Below, in pieces: positions 1,371 through 50,945 of a stretch of DNA of 64,000 nucleotides. The stretch's first letter is position 1. Each line of letters starts with the position of its first letter. Below the pieces are notes generated by a model. It saw only the letters and a program-made list of their open reading frames with translations, searched no databases and had not been told where the DNA came from. The DNA lies in NCBI GenBank assembly GCA_903826575.1, contig CAIKEU010000047.1:1-64000 (forward strand). Reading direction: 5' to 3'. This DNA is from an uncultured bacterium. GTDB taxonomy: Bacteria > Actinomycetota > Actinomycetes > S36-B12 > CAIYMF01. Both the position numbers and the translations under genes were made by a program.

Positions 1371-2198
1371 TTAGATCGTCACCAACACAACCGATGCAGC
1401 CGCCATCACCAAGCCGGCTGCCTGCACATGGCGCACCCGCTCGTGAAGGAACAGGAAGGCCAACAGCACAGTGAATGCTGGATAGAGGGAGGTGATCACC
1501 GATGAGATCGCCAGGCCACCAGCGGATGCGATTAAGAAGCCCGCGCTAGCTAACCCCGCCAATGCTCCGGAGACACTCACACCGAGGAACACTCGCGGGG
1601 TAAAGATCACTCCCTGATCACCGGGTAGTGCCCTAAGAGCAAGGGGAAGAAGAACAAACACCGCCACCAGGCTCAGCCATACGACTGGCCACAGACCGGC
1701 TGCATTTCCAGCACCATGAAGTCCTATAAACATGACGGAAAACGCGATTCCAGCGCCTAACCCCTCCAAGAATCCCGAGGGGCCAACATGCTCATCGCCG
1801 ACTCTGCCGATGAGAGCGGTCGCCGGGATGGCAAGAGCGATACCCAACCATGCAATCGTTGACGGTCGCTCACCAAGGAGAACACCTACCAGTGCCGGGA
1901 CCGACGCTGCCGTGACCGCCGACACAGGCGCGACGACGGAAATCCGCCCAATCGAAAACCCTCGATAAAGGCACAGCACTCCGAATGCACTACCCACACC
2001 AGCAAGGGCACCCCAAAGCATCGCGGACGTCGAGTTCGCCGATCCCGAGACGAGGGTGAGAATCAATACGACGATTCCGGCAGCACCTTGCGAGAACATC
2101 GAGACGAGCGTCGCATTGCTCCGTCGCGAACAAACACCGGCGATGAAGTCTGCGAATCCGTAGCCGCCAGCCGCGAGAAGCGCAAAGAGCACCGTCAT
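1371..2198 (-). CDS. EamA/DMT-family permease
   Basis: About 275 residues with ten hydrophobic segments in two repeated halves, as in EamA drug/metabolite transporters. The second half ends with the family-typical stretch SSVITSLYPAFTVLLAF followed by LHERV. The start chosen is the ATG at 2198, seven bases after the stop of the upstream gene; longer readings add a poor N-terminus that runs into that gene. The tight spacing suggests co-transcription with the TerB-COQ4 protein. Substrate unknown. Confidence 0.85.
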   Translation of the reverse strand: MTVLFALLAAGGYGFADFIAGVCSRRSNATLVSMFSQGAAGIVVLILTLVSGSANSTSAMLWGALAGVGSAFGVLCLYRGFSIGRISVVAPVSAVTAASVPALVGVLLGERPSTIAWLGIALAIPATALIGRVGDEHVGPSGFLEGLGAGIAFSVMFIGLHGAGNAAGLWPVVWLSLVAVFVLLPLALRALPGDQGVIFTPRVFLGVSVSGALAGLASAGFLIASAGGLAISSVITSLYPAFTVLLAFLFLHERVRHVQAAGLVMAAASVVLVTI

Positions 2199-2205
2199 TG
2201 GGCGG

Positions 2206-3174
2206 TCACCACCAGTGCTGCCCATCAGCCGGATTCTCAGGTGCCTGAACACCAAATTCGGCTCGTACGTCAGCGATGTGCATGGGTGCAAGTTCGAAAT
2301 GGTCGATCAGGGAGAAATCGCCACGACAAGCACTCCCCCTGCGAAGTTCAGTGGCCAGCAATCGCGCGTTGGCGGGATTTCCCAGCACCGATTCATTGGC
2401 TTTCGCCAGATGCGATGGATGGGCGAACCCTGCTTCATGCGCGACAAGTGATGCCAACAGGGCCGCACGATTCAGACGATCGTTGTTCATCGCAAATTGA
2501 AAAGCACTCAGAGCGATTTCGGCAGGCACGGTCGTCGACAGGCCCGCGATCGTGTGTGTCATGTCATGAGCGACGAAGAAGTGGTGATGAGTCGAACTGT
2601 CGAGGCCTGGCAACGTCAGGCCGAATCGTTCGTAGAAACCTAGGAAGGCGCGGCCCAAGGTTCCCGGCCCGTATTCAGCAAACGCCTCAAGCTTTTCTGC
2701 GAGTGCCGCCTCATGTAGATCTGCATCGGGCGATATCGCCATGAGTGACGGCTCAACTCGCTCATCAAGGTTTCGATCGAGAAACCGCAAGTAATCAGCC
2801 GAAGCTGCATCGACGCCATCGGAGACGAGATCGCGAAAGATCGCAAGATCGTCGCCGTCCACACCAAGCGCATCCGCATACGCCTGAACCAATTCCACTT
2901 GGCCATCCGTCACGGGGTGGCGACAGGTCTCGAGGGTCAGGTGTAGTTCGTGAAAGGCATTGCGATGGTCTTCATCGGTCACAAGATCTGCCAGCTCGTT
3001 CGGCTCGATACGACGAACCGTCATGAGATCAAGATCGGGTCGATTCCAGACGTGCGAGACGATCGCCTGCAGTACGCCGAGTTGTTCCTCGGTAGGCCCG
3101 CCGTCGACGTCGATTCCTGCCATCAGCCCCCCAGCGAATGGCTCAACCAGATCAGGCGACAGAAGCAATGACAT
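2206..3174 (-). CDS. TerB-like / COQ4-like two-domain protein
   Basis: This 322-residue soluble protein has an N-terminal TerB-like helical region (about 25-135) and a C-terminal half carrying the COQ4 signature HDxxH-x11-E: H203, D204, H207, E219. In COQ4 these residues are the metal ligands of a ubiquinone-biosynthesis protein recently assigned a role in C1 decarboxylation and hydroxylation. Ubiquinone is not expected in an actinomycete, which normally uses menaquinone, so the substrate must differ. It is followed at seven bases by an EamA permease and diverges from the small membrane protein / SDR pair. Domain assignments rest on motif reading; the function is open. Confidence 0.6.
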   Translation of the reverse strand: MSLLLSPDLVEPFAGGLMAGIDVDGGPTEEQLGVLQAIVSHVWNRPDLDLMTVRRIEPNELADLVTDEDHRNAFHELHLTLETCRHPVTDGQVELVQAYADALGVDGDDLAIFRDLVSDGVDAASADYLRFLDRNLDERVEPSLMAISPDADLHEAALAEKLEAFAEYGPGTLGRAFLGFYERFGLTLPGLDSSTHHHFFVAHDMTHTIAGLSTTVPAEIALSAFQFAMNNDRLNRAALLASLVAHEAGFAHPSHLAKANESVLGNPANARLLATELRRGSACRGDFSLIDHFELAPMHIADVRAEFGVQAPENPADGQHWW

Positions 3175-3311: not shown

Positions 3312-3608
3312 ATGGACAGCCCCAAGCAGTCGTTCAACCAACGGTGGGAGCACATGAGCCCGCCTAAGCGGGCAGGCATCATCGTTCTCGCGGGTGTCGA
3401 GATCGTCGCGACTTCGATGGCGTTATTGGATTTGGCCAAACGTCCGCGCGAACTAGTGCGCGGGCCCAAATTCGCGTGGGCACTGGCGTGCGCGATACAA
3501 CCCGTGGGGCCGTTTACCTATCTCGCACTGGGTCGACGCAAGGTCGACCCCGTCAGTCAGCTTTCAGGCGGCGTCGTTGATGGCAATGGGTTAGCGGTCG
3601 CTGAGTAG
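3312..3608 (+). CDS. Small membrane protein, PLDc_N-like
   Basis: A 98-residue protein with two membrane segments (about 22-40 and 55-75) and an LGRRK end, the pattern of phospholipase-D N-terminal (PLDc_N) mini-proteins. A second ATG at 3354 would give an 84-residue form that keeps both helices. Its stop lies nine bases before the SDR gene start, so the two are probably one transcript. Role unknown. Confidence 0.6.
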   Translation: MDSPKQSFNQRWEHMSPPKRAGIIVLAGVEIVATSMALLDLAKRPRELVRGPKFAWALACAIQPVGPFTYLALGRRKVDPVSQLSGGVVDGNGLAVAE

Positions 3609-3617
3609 GATCACCGC

Positions 3618-4412
3618 GTGACCGCATCCTTCTCGCTCGCTAACCGCACTGCACTTGTGACCGGCGTCGGAGCACCCGACGGCATCGGATTCGCGGTGGC
3701 TCGTCAGCTACTCAAGCAAGGCGCACGAGTAGTCATTACTGCGACGTCGAATCGAGTGAACGACAGAGCTGCCGAACTGCGAGCATCCGACGATGTGAAT
3801 GCCGATGAGGTGACGTCGCTGATTGCCGATCTCACCGACGCAGACGCCGCAACCGAACTCGTGCAGCAAGCGAGCAGCCTGCTAGGCCGCATCGACATCC
3901 TCGTTAACAACGCAGGGATGATGCAGACCGGCCAGGCAGTCGCAGACGGCTCGCTATCTGAAGTCGCCGCCGACACGTGGTCTCGGCAGCTCGATATCAC
4001 CCTCATGACGGCAGTGAATGTGACGCGCTGCGCGATCCCGGTGATGCGCGAGCAACGTCACGGACGAATCATCATGATTTCCAGCGTCACCGGGCCGATC
4101 GTTGCGATGCCGAACGCAACCGCCTACGCAACGGCGAAGGCGGGAATGGATGGGCTGATGCGTGCAGTCGCAATCGACGAAGGACGTTTCGGCATCACAT
4201 GCTCGTCCGTGGCACCGGGGTGGATCGCAACCGGTTCGTCGGAACCGGCCGAACTTGCAGCCGGCCTACATACGCCAATCGGCAGGCCAGGTACTCCTGA
4301 TGAGATTGCTGCGATGGTCGGCTTCCTTGCCAGCGACGAAGCGTCGTATGTAACAGGGCAAACTTTCGTCGTTGACGGCGGCAACATCATTCAAGACATC
4401 AAAGGGTCCTAG
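3618..4412 (+). CDS. SDR-family oxidoreductase (3-oxoacyl-ACP reductase-like)
   Basis: A 264-residue classical short-chain dehydrogenase. It has a TGVGAPDGIGFA cofactor loop near residue 15, NNAG near residue 97, a serine in ISSVTG, the YATAK catalytic pair near 170, and a C-terminal YVTGQTFVVDGG. These belong to FabG-like NAD(P)H-dependent carbonyl reductases. The start is GTG. Its 3' end overlaps the convergent TMEM175-like gene by 14 bp. Substrate cannot be told from sequence. Confidence 0.85.
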   Translation: MTASFSLANRTALVTGVGAPDGIGFAVARQLLKQGARVVITATSNRVNDRAAELRASDDVNADEVTSLIADLTDADAATELVQQASSLLGRIDILVNNAGMMQTGQAVADGSLSEVAADTWSRQLDITLMTAVNVTRCAIPVMREQRHGRIIMISSVTGPIVAMPNATAYATAKAGMDGLMRAVAIDEGRFGITCSSVAPGWIATGSSEPAELAAGLHTPIGRPGTPDEIAAMVGFLASDEASYVTGQTFVVDGGNIIQDIKGS

Positions 4413-5109
4413 AAAAATTCCCGTCCGGCTCGTCCGGCATCGAGCGTCCGCTCGGAAGATGTTCGAAGCAGTAATAGAGCGCTACGCCGAAGGTTCCGGC
4501 GAGTGCAATCACCGGATTGATAAAGGCCAAAACAATCAGAACTGTGTAGACCGCGATACCAATACTGAATTGCGGAAACGCCTTGCGCGCAGCAGCGACA
4601 TCGACAGACGGCTCAAGTAACGCGGGCCGCCGAAGGACGTATGCCCAGAGAAACGTGATGCTCAGAGCGATTGCGAGTGCAAGTCCGTCATACGTTGCCA
4701 TCGCAACCTTGGAATTCCAGTTTCCTTCCAAGAGGTACTTCGACACCAACGAGGTGACGAAAGGAATCGCAACCACCAGCATGAGAAATGTGAGGTTGGC
4801 CAACATGAGCCCACGGGTCGCATATCTGATTTGTCAGAATAGCGAATGGTGGTTGATCCAGAGAATCCCGATAACCAAGAACGACGTGACGTAAGCCGCA
4901 TACGACGGCCAGTTCGCCGTCAACGCGTTCCATAGAGGTTGGTCGGGTGCAAGCTCTGGAACTCGCAGGTCCAAGACGAGCAGTGTGATAGCCACTGCAA
5001 TCACACCATCGCTTAGCGCCTCAAGCCGAACTGTGTCAGCGTGCGAGAGCAATCGCTGCGCGCCTTCGTCCGCTGCTTCAATCGTTCGATCCGACTCCCC
5101 CATTGTCAT
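4399..5109 (-). pseudogene. TMEM175 (DUF1211) family channel gene interrupted by an in-frame TGA
   Basis: The first 91 codons (5109-4837) carry the family signature ALSDGVIAVAITLLVLDLRV and end at INHHSLF. A TGA follows at 4836-4834. The same frame then continues without a shift (QIRYATRG, then MLANLTFLMLVVAIPF) to a stop at 4399, exactly as expected for this potassium-channel family. The whole is 237 codons, a normal length. One nonsense change (CGA or TGG to TGA), a sequencing error or readthrough (the context is TGA-C) would all explain it. The downstream ATG at 4806 cannot restore the first helices. Confidence 0.8.
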
Positions 5110-5169: not shown

Positions 5170-5421
5170 TTAGGTCGATGCGCCGTCGTCGCGAATCACA
5201 GCTCGGTGCTCGATGCCGCTGCCGTCGGTGTAATGCGTGAACCGGTATCCCTTCGGTGCCTGGGGTTCGCCGCGATTCGCCGCAGGCTCCATACTCGCGC
5301 GATACTCCGCAATCTCCGCGTCGGTGGCATACGGAGGCGGCCCCTGTTGCGCTGGTCCGAACAACCGAAACAGGCCACGATAGACGCGCTGGAGCCGAGT
5401 GTGTTGCGGTGTGGAGGACAC
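5170..5421 (-). CDS. Small hypothetical protein
   Basis: An 83-residue protein from a GTG at 5421, with a basic N-terminus, a FGPAQQGPPPYATDAEIAEY stretch and a C-terminal YRFTHYTDGSGIEHRAVIRD. Similar short proteins seem common in actinomycetes, but no function is known to me. A longer reading to 5532 adds a low-complexity N-terminus overlapping the toxin-antitoxin promoter, so the shorter start is preferred. Confidence 0.5.
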   Translation of the reverse strand: MSSTPQHTRLQRVYRGLFRLFGPAQQGPPPYATDAEIAEYRASMEPAANRGEPQAPKGYRFTHYTDGSGIEHRAVIRDDGAST

Positions 5422-5524
5422 ACTGTCACCGTACCCCGCTTCGACGCGGGCAGACGAGCCGGACGAGCCCGCCCCGGGGGACGTTGAGTGTTGCCTCTGT
5501 GGACAACAAGACGTTGCGCTTTTT

Positions 5525-5553
5525 CTGTACATTTATAATATCGAGATGTACAG
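5525..5553 (+). promoter_or_regulatory. Promoter and palindromic operator of the toxin-antitoxin operon
   Basis: Perfect 8-bp inverted repeats CTGTACAT (5525-5532) and ATGTACAG (5546-5553) flank a consensus TATAAT (5534-5539). The right arm starts on the antitoxin ATG. Transcription would begin about six bases after the -10, at or next to that ATG, giving a leaderless message. The layout fits autorepression by the antitoxin or the toxin-antitoxin complex. No good -35 element is seen. Confidence 0.65.
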
Positions 5554-5821
5554 TTCAAATATGGTCACCGAAATGCCCGTTACCGAGGCTCGTGAGCGCT
5601 TTAGCGAAGTTGTCGACACGTCAGCTCGCGAGCCGGTCTTCTTGACCAAGCGAGGTCAACGGCAGGCGGTCGTCATCAGCACCGCGGAATATGAACGACT
5701 GCTCGAAGCCGACGAGGACGCCGAAGACCTTGCCGCATCGGACGCTGTCATGAACGAAATCATGGCCGGCAACCCGACGATTCCATGGGCGAAGGTCAAG
5801 GCCGATCTCGGCCTGTCATGA
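5546..5821 (+). CDS. Type II antitoxin, Phd/YefM family
   Basis: A 91-residue protein with the Phd/YefM N-terminal DNA-binding fold (MPVTEARERFSEVVD, then VFLTKRGQRQAVVIS and AEYERLLEA) and an acidic tail that would wrap the toxin. Three in-frame ATGs occur at 5546, 5561 and 5573. The first is taken because the promoter geometry predicts a leaderless message there; 5561 or 5573 would remove only a few residues. The stop overlaps the toxin start (ATGA at 5818-5821), the usual coupling in such operons. Confidence 0.9.
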   Translation: MYSSNMVTEMPVTEARERFSEVVDTSAREPVFLTKRGQRQAVVISTAEYERLLEADEDAEDLAASDAVMNEIMAGNPTIPWAKVKADLGLS

Positions 5822-6081
5822 CCTACGCAATCGAAATCTCCGCCCCCGCCGCTAAAGCACTCGAGAAGATACCCAAATCGACTCGCCTTCGAATCGTTGG
5901 TGCGATTGAGTTGCTTAGCGTCGATCCACGACCACCCGGGGCAAAGATGCTGCGAGGTGGTGAGCACGGACGATGGCGAGTTCGAATTGGCGACTATCGC
6001 ATCGTGTATGCGATTGAGGACGGTCGCCTACTGGTTCTTGTATTGCGCATCGCGCATCGGCGCGAGGCCTACGACCGTTAA
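5818..6081 (+). CDS. Type II toxin, RelE/ParE superfamily
   Basis: An 87-residue basic protein starting YAIEISAPAAKALEKIP and ending with the RelE core WRVRIGDYRIVYAI and VLRIAHRREAYDR. The arginines and the terminal tyrosine/arginine region match RelE-type mRNA interferases, which cleave ribosome-bound mRNA. ParE-type gyrase poisons share the fold, but the RIAHRREAYDR end favours RelE. It is translationally coupled to the antitoxin. Whether it is active cannot be judged here. Confidence 0.9.
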   Translation: MTYAIEISAPAAKALEKIPKSTRLRIVGAIELLSVDPRPPGAKMLRGGEHGRWRVRIGDYRIVYAIEDGRLLVLVLRIAHRREAYDR

Positions 6082-6219
6082 GTCGATTGAAAACTAACGA
6101 AAGCACGCTCTGATCCGTTCGCTTCCACAGGCAGGGGCCGCCCAACGCATCGATCGTTTTGACACCTTGTCGGAAAGACTAACCGGTGTCGGATCGAGAA
6201 GCGCACAACGGCTAAGCCG

Positions 6220-7299
6220 TTAGTTTTCCAATGGGGGCAACGGATTTGCGTCGGATCCCTCGGTGATGATCAGAAGCACGATGCTGTTCGCGTCGATCCC
6301 CAGATGTGAACGACGTGCTGCAGACTCAGATCCGACGAGCACTGAACGGGCAGCAGCCAAGCCCGATCCGCCACACGGACCGGCATGCACGCCCAGCGAG
6401 GCAAGATCGTGTGCGGCTTGAACACCTGCACGGTCTGAGATCGAGATAGCTGCGTCGAGGCCGTTGAGCATGTACGGCCATGCAAGTGACGATGGAGTTC
6501 CGCAGTTGAGCCCAGACATCACGGTCTCGCCCGTTTCAACAGTGACGGGCCGACCGGCCTCAAGGCTTGGCGCCACACATGCTGCCGCCTCGGGCTCGAC
6601 GGAGGCGACGGCCGTTCCTCGCGCGGCACGGTCTCCGCGATAGTGCGCCAGTGCACCTTGGAGAAGCGACCCAACACCTACCGGCACCAAAACTAGATCG
6701 GGTTGATGAAGTCTGTGCGACATCAGCTGCGCATCCGCCTCGGCGAAAAGAGTCGTGTACCCCTCAACGATCCAGCTCGGGATTTCCTCGTAGCCCTCCC
6801 AGGCTGTGTCCTGAACGAGAACCCCGTCAATGTCGGCCGCTAGTTGCGCAGCCGCAGCAACTGCATCGTCATAACTGCCGTCGACGCGGGTTACCGCGGC
6901 ACCTTCGTCGACGATGGCCTGCACAGCCGTCGGGTGCACACCGGGTGGGATCACGATGTGCGCCGACCGACCAGCCAAGCGAGCAAAGCGAGCAACCGCC
7001 CGACCGTGGTTGCCATCCGTAGCCGTCACTACGGTGACGGACGCCGAAGAACCGAGCTGTTCAAGCGCTCGATGTACCGCCCACGACGCACCCAGTGCCT
7101 TAAACGCAGGTAGCCCCAGCCGCGACGACTCGTCTTTAGCAAACACATGCCCAACGCCAAGCTCAGCAGCAAGAGCCGGCAATTCAACTAATGGAGTCGG
7201 CGCATAACCGTCGAGGCTTCGGTGAAAGTCGATCGCAGCTTCCGATGGCGATGAACACGTCCACGATGTATCGCGGGCGTTCGCAAACCACACACTCAT
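6220..7299 (-). CDS. Diaminopropionate ammonia-lyase-like PLP enzyme
   Basis: A 359-residue fold-type II PLP enzyme. Early FHRSLDGYAPTPLVELPALA and KDESSRLGLPAFKALGASWA (with the Schiff-base lysine in FKALGA) are typical of 2,3-diaminopropionate ammonia-lyase, which makes pyruvate and ammonia. TATDGNHGRAVA (near residue 92) and GVGSLLQGALAHY (near 200) are the cofactor loops. The ATG at 7299 has an AGGAG about eight bases upstream. Threonine/serine dehydratases are the main alternative. It appears monocistronic. Confidence 0.8.
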   Translation of the reverse strand: MSVWFANARDTSWTCSSPSEAAIDFHRSLDGYAPTPLVELPALAAELGVGHVFAKDESSRLGLPAFKALGASWAVHRALEQLGSSASVTVVTATDGNHGRAVARFARLAGRSAHIVIPPGVHPTAVQAIVDEGAAVTRVDGSYDDAVAAAAQLAADIDGVLVQDTAWEGYEEIPSWIVEGYTTLFAEADAQLMSHRLHQPDLVLVPVGVGSLLQGALAHYRGDRAARGTAVASVEPEAAACVAPSLEAGRPVTVETGETVMSGLNCGTPSSLAWPYMLNGLDAAISISDRAGVQAAHDLASLGVHAGPCGGSGLAAARSVLVGSESAARRSHLGIDANSIVLLIITEGSDANPLPPLEN

Positions 7300-7495
7300 G
7301 GGACAACTCCTGCACCAAACGTCAACGGGATCCAGCGATCAAGCACGTACGACTCTGGCTCGATCTAACACTACGGCCGAGGTGAATCATGAGCGATACG
7401 TCTTTGGCAGATCCGTCGATCGCCATTCCTGCGTCCGGAAAAGACCGGATGCTCGCCCAATGGCGAAGCCGCCTCATCGATGCGAGGCTCATAAG

Positions 7496-7933
7496 GTGGA
7501 CATCAAATCTGAGGAAGCCCGGCTCACCGGAAGTCTCGGCGTCTGGGCCGGGGCAAGTATCGCTAGCGGAGCCGCGGCGTGGGCATTCGGCAAAACGACG
7601 GGAAGCACTGCGGCACAAGCCTTCGGACGCCAGACCCTCCTGTGGGGAGTCATAGACGGAGCCATCGCCGGAGTGGGGGCGATCAGGAGCCGAAGGCCAC
7701 GTGATCCGGGGACGGAGATCCGCGACGCCGAACGGCTGGGCAGGATTCTGCTGATCAACGCGGCCGCGGACGTAGCGTACGTCGCCGCCGGCGTATGGCT
7801 GATGAAACGCCCAGAACGCGATCAGTCGCGGCGACTGACCCGGGCAGATGGTGCAGCCATCGTCATCCAAGGCGGGTTCCTACTCGCGTTGGACACCACC
7901 TTTGCTGCACGGTTGCGCCAAGCCACTTCCTGA
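7496..7933 (+). CDS. Membrane protein, DUF6992-like
   Basis: A 145-residue protein with four hydrophobic segments: GVWAGASIASGAAAWAFG, a GVIDGAIAGVGAI turn, LLINAAADVAYVAAGVWLM and IVIQGGFLLALDTTFAARL. This resembles small DUF6992 membrane proteins. The GTG at 7496 has GAGG eight bases upstream; longer readings into 7298 look non-coding. No function known. The 196 bp before it, back to the lyase start, holds no gene I can support. Confidence 0.55.
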   Translation: MDIKSEEARLTGSLGVWAGASIASGAAAWAFGKTTGSTAAQAFGRQTLLWGVIDGAIAGVGAIRSRRPRDPGTEIRDAERLGRILLINAAADVAYVAAGVWLMKRPERDQSRRLTRADGAAIVIQGGFLLALDTTFAARLRQATS

Positions 7934-8035
7934 GAGGTTCACCTAGACACATTGCCTATTGCCCGTTCGTGGAGGTGGCGGGACCCGTCGCTTCGCTACC
8001 GAGGCGCGACGGATCCCGGCAACAATCTTTCGAAC

Positions 8036-8076
8036 AAAACAAAAACCCTGGGGGATCAACCCCGGGTTTTTGTTTT
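8036..8076 (-). terminator. Second terminator, duplicate of the tmRNA terminator
   Basis: Arms AAAACAAAAACCC (8036-8048) and GGGTTTTTGTTTT (8064-8076) extend into a GGGG/CCCC inner stem with one bulged T. The sequence is nearly identical to the terminator at 8153-8182, which fits the tandem duplication of the tmRNA 3' region. It may also serve the convergent membrane-protein gene ending at 7933. Confidence 0.85.
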
Positions 8077-8152
8077 GTGGAGGTGGCGGGACCCGTCGGG
8101 CCGCCACCGGCGGCCCTCCTCCCGATTCCCACAGCACTCCCTGACACAAAAC

Positions 8153-8182
8153 AAAAACCCGGGGGATCAACCCCGGGTTTTT
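8153..8182 (-). terminator. Intrinsic terminator of tmRNA
   Basis: A perfect 12-bp stem, AAAAACCCGGGG paired with CCCCGGGTTTTT around a six-base loop, ends in a T-run on the minus strand a few bases beyond the mature tmRNA 3' end. It is symmetrical and could also act on the plus strand. Confidence 0.9.
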
Positions 8183-8188
8183 CATTTG

Positions 8189-8551
8189 TGGAGGTGGCGG
8201 GAATCGAACCCGCGTCCTTCGTTGGCGATCAGGGACTTCTCCGGGCGCAGCCTGCTGTGATTTTCTCGGCCCCGACAGTCACACAGGCAAGCTGTCGACG
8301 GGCTCAGTTACTGTTTAGTGTCCCGCGATATCCCGTAACCGGATAGCGAAGTAAGTCCCCTAAATGACGCCAGGGTCCGGAGCGGGAACGCCCCCGGTCT
8401 GACGGACTTCAGGCTCGCTTAAGCAGCGAGGGCGAAGTCAGTGCGCTGAGAATTGGCACTTGTGATTTTTTGCTGGATCGTTAACGAGTTAACCAGCATC
8501 CTCGGCCCGCTTCTCCCGTCTCAACAGACGAAGTCGAAACCGATCACCCCC
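8189..8551 (-). ncRNA. ssrA: tmRNA (ssrA), tag ANSQRTDFALAA
   Basis: The 5' end GGGGGTG (8551-8545) pairs with CACCTCC (8196-8190), leaving discriminator A at 8189. The next bases are CAA, so CCA is not encoded. The tRNA-like T-arm GGGTTCGATTCCC is present. A reading frame at 8457-8419 encodes ANSQRTDFALAA followed by TAA; its -ALAA end and the RTDFALAA run match other actinobacterial tags. Resumption is at GCC, after ACAAGT. It tags products of stalled ribosomes with SmpB. smpB lies 6.7 kb upstream on the same strand, separated by three unrelated genes. Confidence 0.95.
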
Positions 8552-8781
8552 ATGTTCAGTTGTGGACAAAGCATATCCGATGATGCCCGCGGCGCTCACC
8601 TCGGTTACGGCCTGTGGTCGGCACATCATGCTCCGTCAGCACAATGGACCTAACAAGTGAATCCGAAACACCGTTCGACGATCCTTGTACGTATCTTGAT
8701 CTGACGATCAACTAGGCGTGAAGCACCGGACAAATCCGTCACGTACTGTCGAGACACAAGGAACAAACCGAGTCTCGCGAA

Positions 8782-11700
8782 ATGATCATGTTGACGTTCA
8801 ATCCGGCCAGTGGCCGCACCAAGCATGGCCCTAAGTTGGCTAGGGCCGTAGCGCTGTCCGCATGCCTGCTTGTCACCACGTCAGCTTTGAGCGCTCTCCC
8901 ATCGCCCTCGCAAGCAAGCCCGACAAGTAACAGCTCTGGGACAAATTCTTTCGACCCGATGCGTGATGGTTGGGACTCAAACGAGCCGCACCTCAAACCC
9001 ACCGATGTCAGTTCGTCGAGTTTTGGACAAATCTTTCAGACCCAACTTCAAGGACAGGTCTACGCGCAGCCGATCGTCGCCAACAATCATTTGATTGTCG
9101 CCACAGAAGATAACGTCATCTACGGTCTAGATCCTGCCACCGGGAACAAAACGTGGACGCGGGATCTGTCGAAGGACGACACCCTAAACACCGGCTTGCC
9201 TGCCCAGTACCCGTGGCCCGCTGGGAGCCAGACCGTGAGCTGTGGCGACCTACTGCCGAACATTGGCATCACGTCGACCCCGGTCTACAACCCGACGACC
9301 AACTCTGTTTACTTCGTCAACAAGTGGGACAACGGGGCTGATCACTCAAACGCTCACTACTTCATTCACGCAATCGACCCAGCCACCGGTGTTGAGAGGC
9401 CGAACTTTCCACACGAGATCAGTGGACGTCCGAGCAACGACTCAACAATCCAGTTCGACGCATTCACCCAGTTGCAGCGACCCGGCCTGCTCCTTCTCGA
9501 CGGAGCCATCTACATAGGCTTTGGTTCACACTGCGATTACGCAGCCGGCGGCAGCAGACCTTACCGCGGCTTCATAGTCGGCGTAGATGCATCGTCAGGC
9601 AGCCAAACTGCAATGTGGACGACGGAAACTTCCGTTGCTAGTGCGGGCGGCGCGGGCGTTTGGCAGTCGGGCACCGGCCTGATGTCAGACGGGCCCGGTC
9701 GCATCTTCTTCAGCACCGGTAACGGAGTCGCACCACCAGTTCCAACTGGCGCGACGTCATTGCTCGGCAGTGCCGCCTCGACGGTTCGCACATTCTCCGA
9801 GTCCATCGTTCGACTCCAAGTGCAGCCAGATAGATCGCTGGCTGCTGCGGATTTCTTCAGCCCATCAAATGCCGATGTGCTCGACCTTCAAGACCTCGAC
9901 ATTTCCTCCGGCGGGCCGGTCGCCCTGCCAGACTCTTTCAGCACCTCACCCCATCTTCTGACAGTGCAGGGGAAAGACGGACGTCTGTTCCTGCTCAACC
10001 GTGATTCCCTCGGTGGCCGGGTGGCGGCCACCGGAACAGACCGAGCCCTCGGTGTTACTTCTACCCTCGACGCTCAGTACGGACGTCAGGCCGTTTGGGG
10101 TGGCGACGGCGGGTACGTCTTCAACTCAACCTACGACCGAGGCTTGCGCGCCTACGTGTACGGCCTAACCACGAGCGGGCAGCCATCGCTTACCGACGTT
10201 GGCGGATCCCAAACGCGTTACTTCGGTTTCGGCTCTGGCTCCCCCATCGTTACGTCCGACGGAACTGCCTCCAACAGTGCCACCGTATGGGTCATTACTG
10301 AGGCCGGCAGCGATGGAAGTAACGGCACACTTCACGCATTCAATGCGGTTCCGAGTACCGGAATCATGGACGAGATCTACACTGCGCCCATCGGGTTCGC
10401 GACAAAGTTCTCAACGCCCATGGCGTACAACGGCCGCATCTACGTCGGAACGCGTTGCTCACCAAACAGCACCACAAGTGCGTCGGCTCCGTGCCACGAC
10501 GGCATGATTCAAGCTTTTGGTAGCCCAACCACAAATCTGCTCACCGGTAACGCGCTAGATCTTGGCTCCACACCGACCGGCCAGACGCTCAGCGGAACCA
10601 TCACCCTGACAGCTAGCGCGGCAGCAAAGGTGACAATCACCAACGCTTCAACCTCGTCACCGTTCAGCGTCGCGACCTCGGCAAACTGGACGCCAGCGCC
10701 CACGGCTCCCGGGTCGTCAGTCGTAGTCGCGGCCGGCCAATCCATAAAGATCCCCGTGAGCTTCACAGCTACGGCTCCCGGCGCCTTCAGCGGATTGCTT
10801 TCTGTGCAAACCGACGTCGGCAAGTTCGACTTTGGACTTCACGCTTCGGCAACGACACGAGAACTTCTCGTCACATCCCCGAAGTTGAACTCGAATGCTG
10901 TGCTGTTCCCTGTTCAACCAACAGGAATAACAAGGACAATCAACGTCCAAGTCAGCAATATGGGTCCAACCCCGGAAACCATCACCGATATCAGCGGAAT
11001 CAGCGCACCATTTTCGATCCGCGGTTCGTTGACACTCCCGATCAACCTCGCGCCGGCAGGTCAACCAGGATCTGCAGTCGTTATACCTGTTTCATTCAGG
11101 CCCACCACGGCGCCAAGCGATGGGTCAGCCGCACCCTTCACCGGTGAAATCGATGTCACCGGCACGGCCAGTCTGCCAACGAGCCCCCTGTGCGTGAATT
11201 CGAGTCCATGCATTCCGCTCAAAGGAACCGCTGTTATCGCTGCTCCGCACGTCACCTACACACCCGTGACCAATGCGTTCGGCATTGTGCGCGTCGGTAA
11301 GGCAGCCACTCATACGTTCCAAATTACCAACGATGGAAACCTGCCGATAACTATCGTGAAGGCCAAGCCGCCGGTGAGTGTTTTCACCGCAACGCGCCCG
11401 GTTGACGAGGGCACGACCATTCCCGTTGGTGAATCAGTGGCAGTCGACGTCCGTTTCGCCCCATCGACGGCGGGCGTCTGGTCGGACCACTACTCGATTA
11501 CGCCGAGCGCAGGGTCGTCAATGACGACAATTTCATTCACCGGCATTGGCGTCGATATACCAACGGCACCAAGGGCTATCAGTGTAACCCCTGGGGTGCG
11601 TTCGGTCGTGGCCACGTGGTCGCAAGCATTGAGCAATGGCGGTCTCAACCTGACTGGCTACACCGTTACCGCAACCCCTGGTGGTCGCAGTTGCAGCACC

Positions 11701-50431: not shown

Positions 50432-50945
50432 TAAGCATCACCTTCCTGCATCTTGTTCGGTGTATATGAGCGTCGTTAGCCGACGTTCATATGTGACTCT
50501 CCTTCTTGCCCCGTGCGATCCTCGTTCGCACGAAAATTTTGCGCATCTTCTTGCATCGTGTGAATTGCGTCGGACATTAGTGAATTGCGTGACACCCGAT
50601 CGGCCGACCTGGTTTTCGACCCCACATTCGCCTGCTGAGGGTCTCGCCGCACCCGGGCGGGTATCACGCGACTACTCCCCTTCTCTCGAAGTTCCGCGCA
50701 GATGTACGCAGAGTCAAGGCAGGACTTACTTCTAAACCGCACCGTGATCGAGCGACAAAGAGTCGCCTTACGTGGACCGCTTTGCCTGCGGCTGGCATCG
50801 GCTTGCTCCCGAGCGGCTCCGTCAACCGGAACCGCTTCGGGGGCGCAACCACGGACCCGAGCGGGTGTCACGAGACCAACGTATCCCCGCGGACGCCGGT
50901 TTGCTGGTTACTAGGCAAACCTCTCTCACCCATTTGCGTCCGGAG
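50432..50945. other. 514-bp intergenic region upstream of hpf with a thrice-repeated motif
   Basis: No credible gene is found; reading frames here are low-complexity. The motif CGTGAYACCCGNNCGG occurs three times: plus orientation at 50587-50603, minus orientation at 50669-50653 and 50873-50857. The two minus copies contain ACCCG/CGGGT hairpins. The long leader may hold an unrecognised regulatory RNA or operators controlling hpf. Confidence 0.5.

Follow-up and report, generated by a model that had tools for sequence, protein, structure and literature searches.

A TerB-like/COQ4 fusion protein in a freshwater actinobacterium with a menaquinone gene cluster

The COQ4 family (PF05019) is represented by human COQ4 and by the cyanobacterial homologues Alr8543 (6e12) and Npun (3msq). 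The 6e12 structure holds Mg at the metal motif and bound oleate, and an obsolete entry for a COQ4 homologue holds geranylgeranyl monophosphate (PMC9774615). An ancestral COQ4 was shown in vitro to be a Zn-dependent C1 decarboxylase, with no product formed by motif double mutants, and the C1 step was described as a plain decarboxylation that is followed by COQ6 (PMC7615680). A single-step oxidative decarboxylation at C1 is reported for human COQ4 in a review (PMC11495197). COQ4-like paralogs of plants are expanded and faster-evolving, and a role for them in naphthoquinone synthesis is at the stage of a proposal (PMC8969065). In our literature search, no function turned up that had been assigned to the COQ4 homologues of ubiquinone-free bacteria.

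The protein described here has the COQ4 fold, the GxLGr and HDxxH-x11-E motifs and the C-terminal G280 region, and it aligns over most of the COQ4 domain. It differs from the family in carrying an extra N-terminal TerB-like domain of about 120 aa, in scoring under the Pfam cut-off, and in being multi-copy and patchy where ubiquinone markers are lacking. The N-terminal domain resembles the COG3793 TerB-like protein of Nostoc (2ou3) and PG1108 (2h5n) in helical fold over its whole length, but it gives no Pfam TerB match, and the sequence profile of the fusion family does not reach these two chains. The shikonin-linked plant paralogs offer a parallel, as an expanded COQ4 set proposed for a non-ubiquinone quinone pathway; they differ in being placed in a naphthoquinone pathway, and PMC8969065 mentions no TerB domain. 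The fusion shows a known enzyme family in a new domain arrangement, and in hosts where it was not expected: no description of a TerB-COQ4 fusion was found in a literature search that lay largely outside subscription journals.

Architecture and fold of the fusion protein

The window, meaning the whole 64,000-nucleotide stretch of DNA that was analysed, encodes the fusion protein near one end. The gene, its mapped parts and the adjoining gene are as follows.

2206..3174, minus strand: TerB-like/COQ4 fusion gene, 322 aa (ATG at 3174, TGA at 2206-2208; open reading frame)
2815..3174, minus strand: N-terminal TerB-like helical domain, residues about 1-120, boundary approximate (AF2 and VIA-align)
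2242..2844, minus strand: COQ4-like domain, residues about 111-311 (AF2, Foldseek, VIA-align and profile match)
2518..2568, minus strand: putative metal-site motif HDMTH-x11-E, residues H203, D204, H207 and E219 (sequence)
2209..2226, minus strand: C-terminal tail DGQHWW, of the form DGxHxW (alignment A1)
1371..2198, minus strand: EamA-family permease gene (PF00892, E 8.2e-17)

A preliminary description of this DNA had reported an exact COQ4 metal motif joined to a TerB-like N-terminal domain, and had proposed structure prediction as a check. The motif is indeed exact (H203-D204-x2-H207-x11-E219, within HHHFFVAHDMTHTIAGLSTTVPAEIALSAFQ). Taken from this one sequence, a COQ4 annotation would be doubtful, since the Pfam Coq4 model scored 20.1 bits (E 4.4e-4), under its gathering cut-off of 22.9, and phmmer matched 6e12 with an E of 0.024. 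A profile built from 30 relatives matched the two cyanobacterial homologues, 3msq (E 1.5e-11) and 6e12 (E 2e-10), and the aligned region of 3msq began with the GxLG motif, took in the metal site and reached as far as the C-terminal EvRe.fGV segment. PF05019 was matched by 28 of the 30 family members at E up to 0.1.

Fold prediction depended on how the protein was divided. The AF2 model of the whole protein, made with 13 close relatives, was poor in its C-terminal half (pLDDT mostly <50), and a PDB search with it did not find COQ4, which was found once residues 106-322 were folded alone. That second model, for which one more divergent paralog was used, had a mean pLDDT of 72.8 and a pTM of 0.73; pLDDT fell below 50 at residues 147-155 and in most of the first 35 residues of the model. 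Foldseek matched it to 6e12 of Nostoc (E 1.3e-5) and 3msq (E 3.8e-5). VIA-align gave a Z of 12.7 over 171 residues for 6e12 (rmsd 6.9) and 11.2 over 162 residues for 3msq (rmsd 5.6), the best unrelated chain after these having a Z of 3.0. The predicted fold is thus COQ4-like, and membership in PF05019 is supported jointly by the metal motif, by profile similarity over the domain and by tertiary structure. The fusion protein is a real finding and more than a motif coincidence.

The N-terminal half was well predicted in the full-length model (pLDDT block means 67-95). The top two VIA-align rows for it were both TerB-like chains, 2ou3 (Z 9.8 over 137 residues, rmsd 7.2) and 2h5n (Z 8.7 over 114 residues, rmsd 3.6), and the third row had a Z of 4.3. 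Pfam scans showed no TerB match in the fusion protein at E up to 1 or in 30 family members at E up to 0.1, and neither 2ou3 nor 2h5n was among the PDB chains matched by the family sequence profile. TerB was therefore unseen by every sequence method, so that this half is assigned by fold, where the COQ4 half is assigned by sequence profile and fold. The models point to a TerB helical fold, with some doubt left by Z values <13 in a helical domain; to that extent the TerB-COQ4 fusion of the preliminary description was borne out. The domain contains DVDGGPT..Q31 and the subfamily motif C84-R85-H86-P87.

At the other end of the protein, D317, G318, H320 and W322 of the tail are invariant in alignment A1, and most other paralogs lack the tail. 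Its DGxHxW form at the extreme C-terminus is limited to the closest subfamily (loci L002-L013 and L015). It could possibly serve as a tag or an interaction site.

Distribution and conservation of the family

A scan with one genome per species returned 12 clear relatives (48-99% identity), all in records titled Actinomycetota or a subgroup thereof, and the orthologs in 12 loci were of about equal length. One record, that of L011, is titled Bifidobacterium breve, a title that is probably wrong: the locus contains mycofactocin genes, and its matches are to uncultured actinobacteria of freshwater. In the profile search that had been suggested for the same fusion, the family profile detected it in 14 of 396 sampled Actinomycetota genomes. 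The Pfam COQ4 model detected only three of the same genomes, so standard annotation overlooks the fusion. Within the order of the host, 23 of 166 genomes carry the family. No relative was found in the viral contigs or the plasmids searched.

Of the four fusion genes in the host genome, one is the window copy, two form a tandem pair at C101:62.4-64.5 kb, and one is split by a contig break. The pieces of the last lie at the starts of C36 and C49, are 97% identical in their overlap, and are 96-98% identical to a single intact gene in genome G410. In a 59-sequence family tree, the host's copies fell into separate clades, and the window copy grouped with sequences from other families of the order as well as with records titled Ilumatobacter. 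The scattered copies are explained by old paralogs that were lost patchily, by transfer, or by the two together.

Eight positions were invariant in the 30-sequence alignment: R130, G174, H203, D204, H207, E219, R279 and G280. The four putative ligands were kept in all 61 motif-covering sequences of a set of 63, down to about 20% identity, and R130, G174 and R279-G280 were also nearly invariant in the family. Both halves (profile start <=24, end >=310) were spanned by 48 of 65 distinct sequences. Another nine had a diverged N-terminus, with sequence preceding the profile match, and the remaining eight were partial, several of them at contig ends; L123 (genome G134) may be a stand-alone COQ4 domain. 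A dN/dS of 0.11 in each of three pairs (window-L002, L005-L006 and L009-L011) indicates that the fusion gene is under purifying selection.

Taken alone, the conservation of the metal motif is also compatible with a non-catalytic role, as a lipid carrier would conserve much the same residues. The protein could in that case be a lipid-binding scaffold, in which a lipid or isoprenoid sits in the COQ4 fold, the metal is structural, and membrane enzymes are organised around it, the role that yeast Coq4 was long believed to have. COQ4 homologue structures with a bound fatty acid or geranylgeranyl monophosphate (PMC9774615) fit such a role, as do the view that COQ4 organises the CoQ complex (PMC11495197) and a second, all-helical domain suited to docking. 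Catalysis, however, better fits four ligands that are absolutely conserved despite drift to about 20% identity, and the COQ4 motif was required for decarboxylation in vitro (PMC7615680). We therefore consider a scaffold unlikely, although it is the alternative to be taken most seriously.

Quinone genes of the host and the proposed function

The host had been presumed to be a menaquinone organism, and a survey of its quinone genes had been proposed; both were followed up by single-family searches and one 14-kb stretch of a genome that is 98% complete. A complete classical menaquinone cluster was found at C101:138-152 kb, with menA, menE, menB, menC, menD and isochorismate synthase. For menE, the best match was the o-succinylbenzoate-CoA ligase model, whose cut-off is 345 bits and which scored 300 bits here. 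The futalosine route was not indicated, as the host genome had no PF02621 match. The ubiquinone markers covered were COQ7, UbiH/COQ6 and UbiA-proteo. COQ7 was not found in the host genome, and neither a UbiH/COQ6-type hydroxylase nor a 4-HB-type UbiA (UbiA-proteo) scored over cut-off; two sub-threshold UbiA-family matches were seen, one protein scoring 67.6 bits. The men gene cluster gives support to what had been a presumption. Judged by gene content, the host, a freshwater actinobacterium, is a menaquinone organism and very probably lacks ubiquinone.

These results bear directly on the possibility of an ordinary COQ4 working in a cryptic ubiquinone pathway. The COQ4 fold and motif are present, and the two sub-threshold UbiA-family matches could be read in the same direction. 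With no COQ7 and no UbiH/COQ6 over cut-off in a nearly complete genome, four divergent copies of the gene and a complete menaquinone pathway, this possibility is scarcely credible.

The protein might instead tailor or salvage menaquinone or a precursor, its target being, for example, a naphthoate acid or a modified tail. The host makes menaquinone by its gene content, COQ4 acts on prenylated aromatic acids, and in a plant, co-expression links a COQ4 paralog to the pathway for the naphthoquinone shikonin (PMC8969065). Against this, the gene was undetected in 143 of the 166 genomes of the order, and no fusion copy adjoins the men cluster: on C101 the tandem pair lies at 62-64 kb and the men cluster at 143-151 kb. 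MenA itself decarboxylates DHNA, so no menaquinone step is missing. We regard menaquinone tailoring as quite improbable.

Given that motif and fold are kept, the protein most likely carries out a metal-dependent reaction akin to that of COQ4, with a lipophilic acid as substrate. We propose an accessory COQ4-type enzyme, probably metal-dependent and decarboxylase-like, whose hydrophobic substrate is not a ubiquinone precursor and lies outside respiratory quinone synthesis, and we give this proposal about an even chance of being right. The C-terminal COQ4 fold would hold a divalent metal through H203, D204, H207 and E219, beside a hydrophobic pocket. There, an aromatic acid that is prenylated, or lipophilic in some other way, would most likely have its carboxyl group removed or replaced, in parallel to the reaction of COQ4 on the coenzyme Q precursor, and the TerB-like helical domain would most likely dock the enzyme to a membrane or to a partner protein. 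A patchy, multi-copy distribution is expected of an accessory step and not of a core one, and since the gene is also untied to quinone genes, its product probably acts on some accessory metabolite or lipid. The earlier suggestion of a metalloenzyme with a different substrate fits the fold, quinone and fusion results, with metal binding, activity and substrate as its conjectural part. Of the two outcomes that the preliminary description had named as refuting it, a fold unlike COQ4 and a complete ubiquinone pathway in this genome, neither was observed with the models and markers used. COQ4-type chemistry is probably used in this host on a molecule other than the coenzyme Q precursor.

A wider form of this proposal, which we put forward more tentatively, is that the TerB-docked, multi-copy branch of COQ4 carries out metal-dependent, possibly oxidative, decarboxylation of non-ubiquinone lipids in ubiquinone-free bacteria. 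If true, COQ4 chemistry would be a general lipid-tailoring activity and not specific to ubiquinone. A bacterial family with an intact metal site that is untied to ubiquinone would also allow reaction and substrate range to be tested apart from ubiquinone.

Gene neighbourhoods and other elements of the window

The likely ATG of the EamA gene (2198-2196) lies 7 nt downstream of the fusion stop codon (2208-2206), a gap that makes co-transcription as an operon likely at the window locus. The coupling to an EamA permease noted in the preliminary description therefore stands as to a real, adjacent gene. The adjacency recurs only in the near-identical L002/L092 (L002 has 97% DNA identity to the window over this stretch and 99% protein identity), and such a link is poor evidence for function; EamA was rejected as a general functional partner, the adjacency not being kept beyond the near-identical relative. 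An SDR gene (3618-4412) was likewise rejected as a partner because it is missing from L002, where the whole stretch 3538-4437 is lacking. L002, elsewhere 95-97% identical, also lacks the stretch 5446-6216, which holds most of a Phd/RelE-like toxin-antitoxin pair (5399-6081), and these differences beside the fusion gene are recent gains or losses.

Among 38 loci searched for conserved neighbours, flanking genes were unrelated except in close relatives and in a mycofactocin-linked group. The unrelated neighbours include HSP70, a 5'-3' exonuclease, glycerate kinase, DNA alkylation repair, PIN and PIG-L genes. Other neighbours vary as well, among them an AMP-binding ligase (L019), a cytochrome P450 (L099), a phosphodiesterase (L044) and numerous housekeeping genes, and no pathway can be read from such a context. 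No family of the PADLOC models was matched at E 0.01, and an anti-phage defence role was rejected. An MFS transporter and a GMC oxidoreductase flank the fusion gene in L020/L045. In L045 (about 5870-10309) the three lie close together on one strand, with a GMC oxidoreductase that is weakly MftG/pyranose-oxidase-like; of the contexts seen, this one looks the most metabolic.

In the mycofactocin-linked group (L009, L011 and L016/L046), the fusion gene shares a strand with mftD and precedes it by 68-127 bp, with mftC close by and, in L009, mftB also beside it.

L009:2279-4545: mycofactocin-linked locus, TerB-COQ4 directly upstream of mftD
L011:5998-9424: mycofactocin-linked locus, TerB-COQ4 directly upstream of mftD
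L046:8054-11421: mycofactocin-linked locus, TerB-COQ4 directly upstream of mftD

The fusion could accordingly belong to the mycofactocin redox-cofactor network, as a biosynthesis helper or a mycofactocin-dependent enzyme. Besides this adjacency, mftC was enriched in fusion-carrying genomes (7/14 vs 45/382 others; Fisher p 8e-4, uncorrected for kinship). The three linked loci are, however, close relatives, with MftD 97-98% identical, and at E 1e-60 the maturase MftC had no match in the 98% complete host genome or in six of the other 13 carriers. An obligate mycofactocin role is thereby contradicted, unless the 2% that the assembly lacks should contain MftC, and we consider any mycofactocin role very improbable. 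No paper linking COQ4 with mycofactocin was found in the literature search. Between L011 and L016/L046, the fusion gene is only 53% identical and the flanking genes 84-97%, which suggests that another paralog has taken its place or that it has changed unusually fast.

Several further elements of the window were observed. A TMEM175-like membrane protein gene (4399-5109, minus strand) is split into two open reading frames of 135 and 91 aa, and its L002 counterpart is a single 226-aa frame. A tmRNA gene lies at 8186-8551 (minus strand) and 8040-8185, with the tag ANSQRTDFALAA; right next to it, a hairpin-like element (CCC GGGGGATCAACCCC GGGTTTTT) occurs twice, and a GTGGAGGTGGCGGGA repeat follows each copy. 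A raiA RNA at 50595-50865 on the minus strand matched RF03072 over its full length with 151.6 bits.
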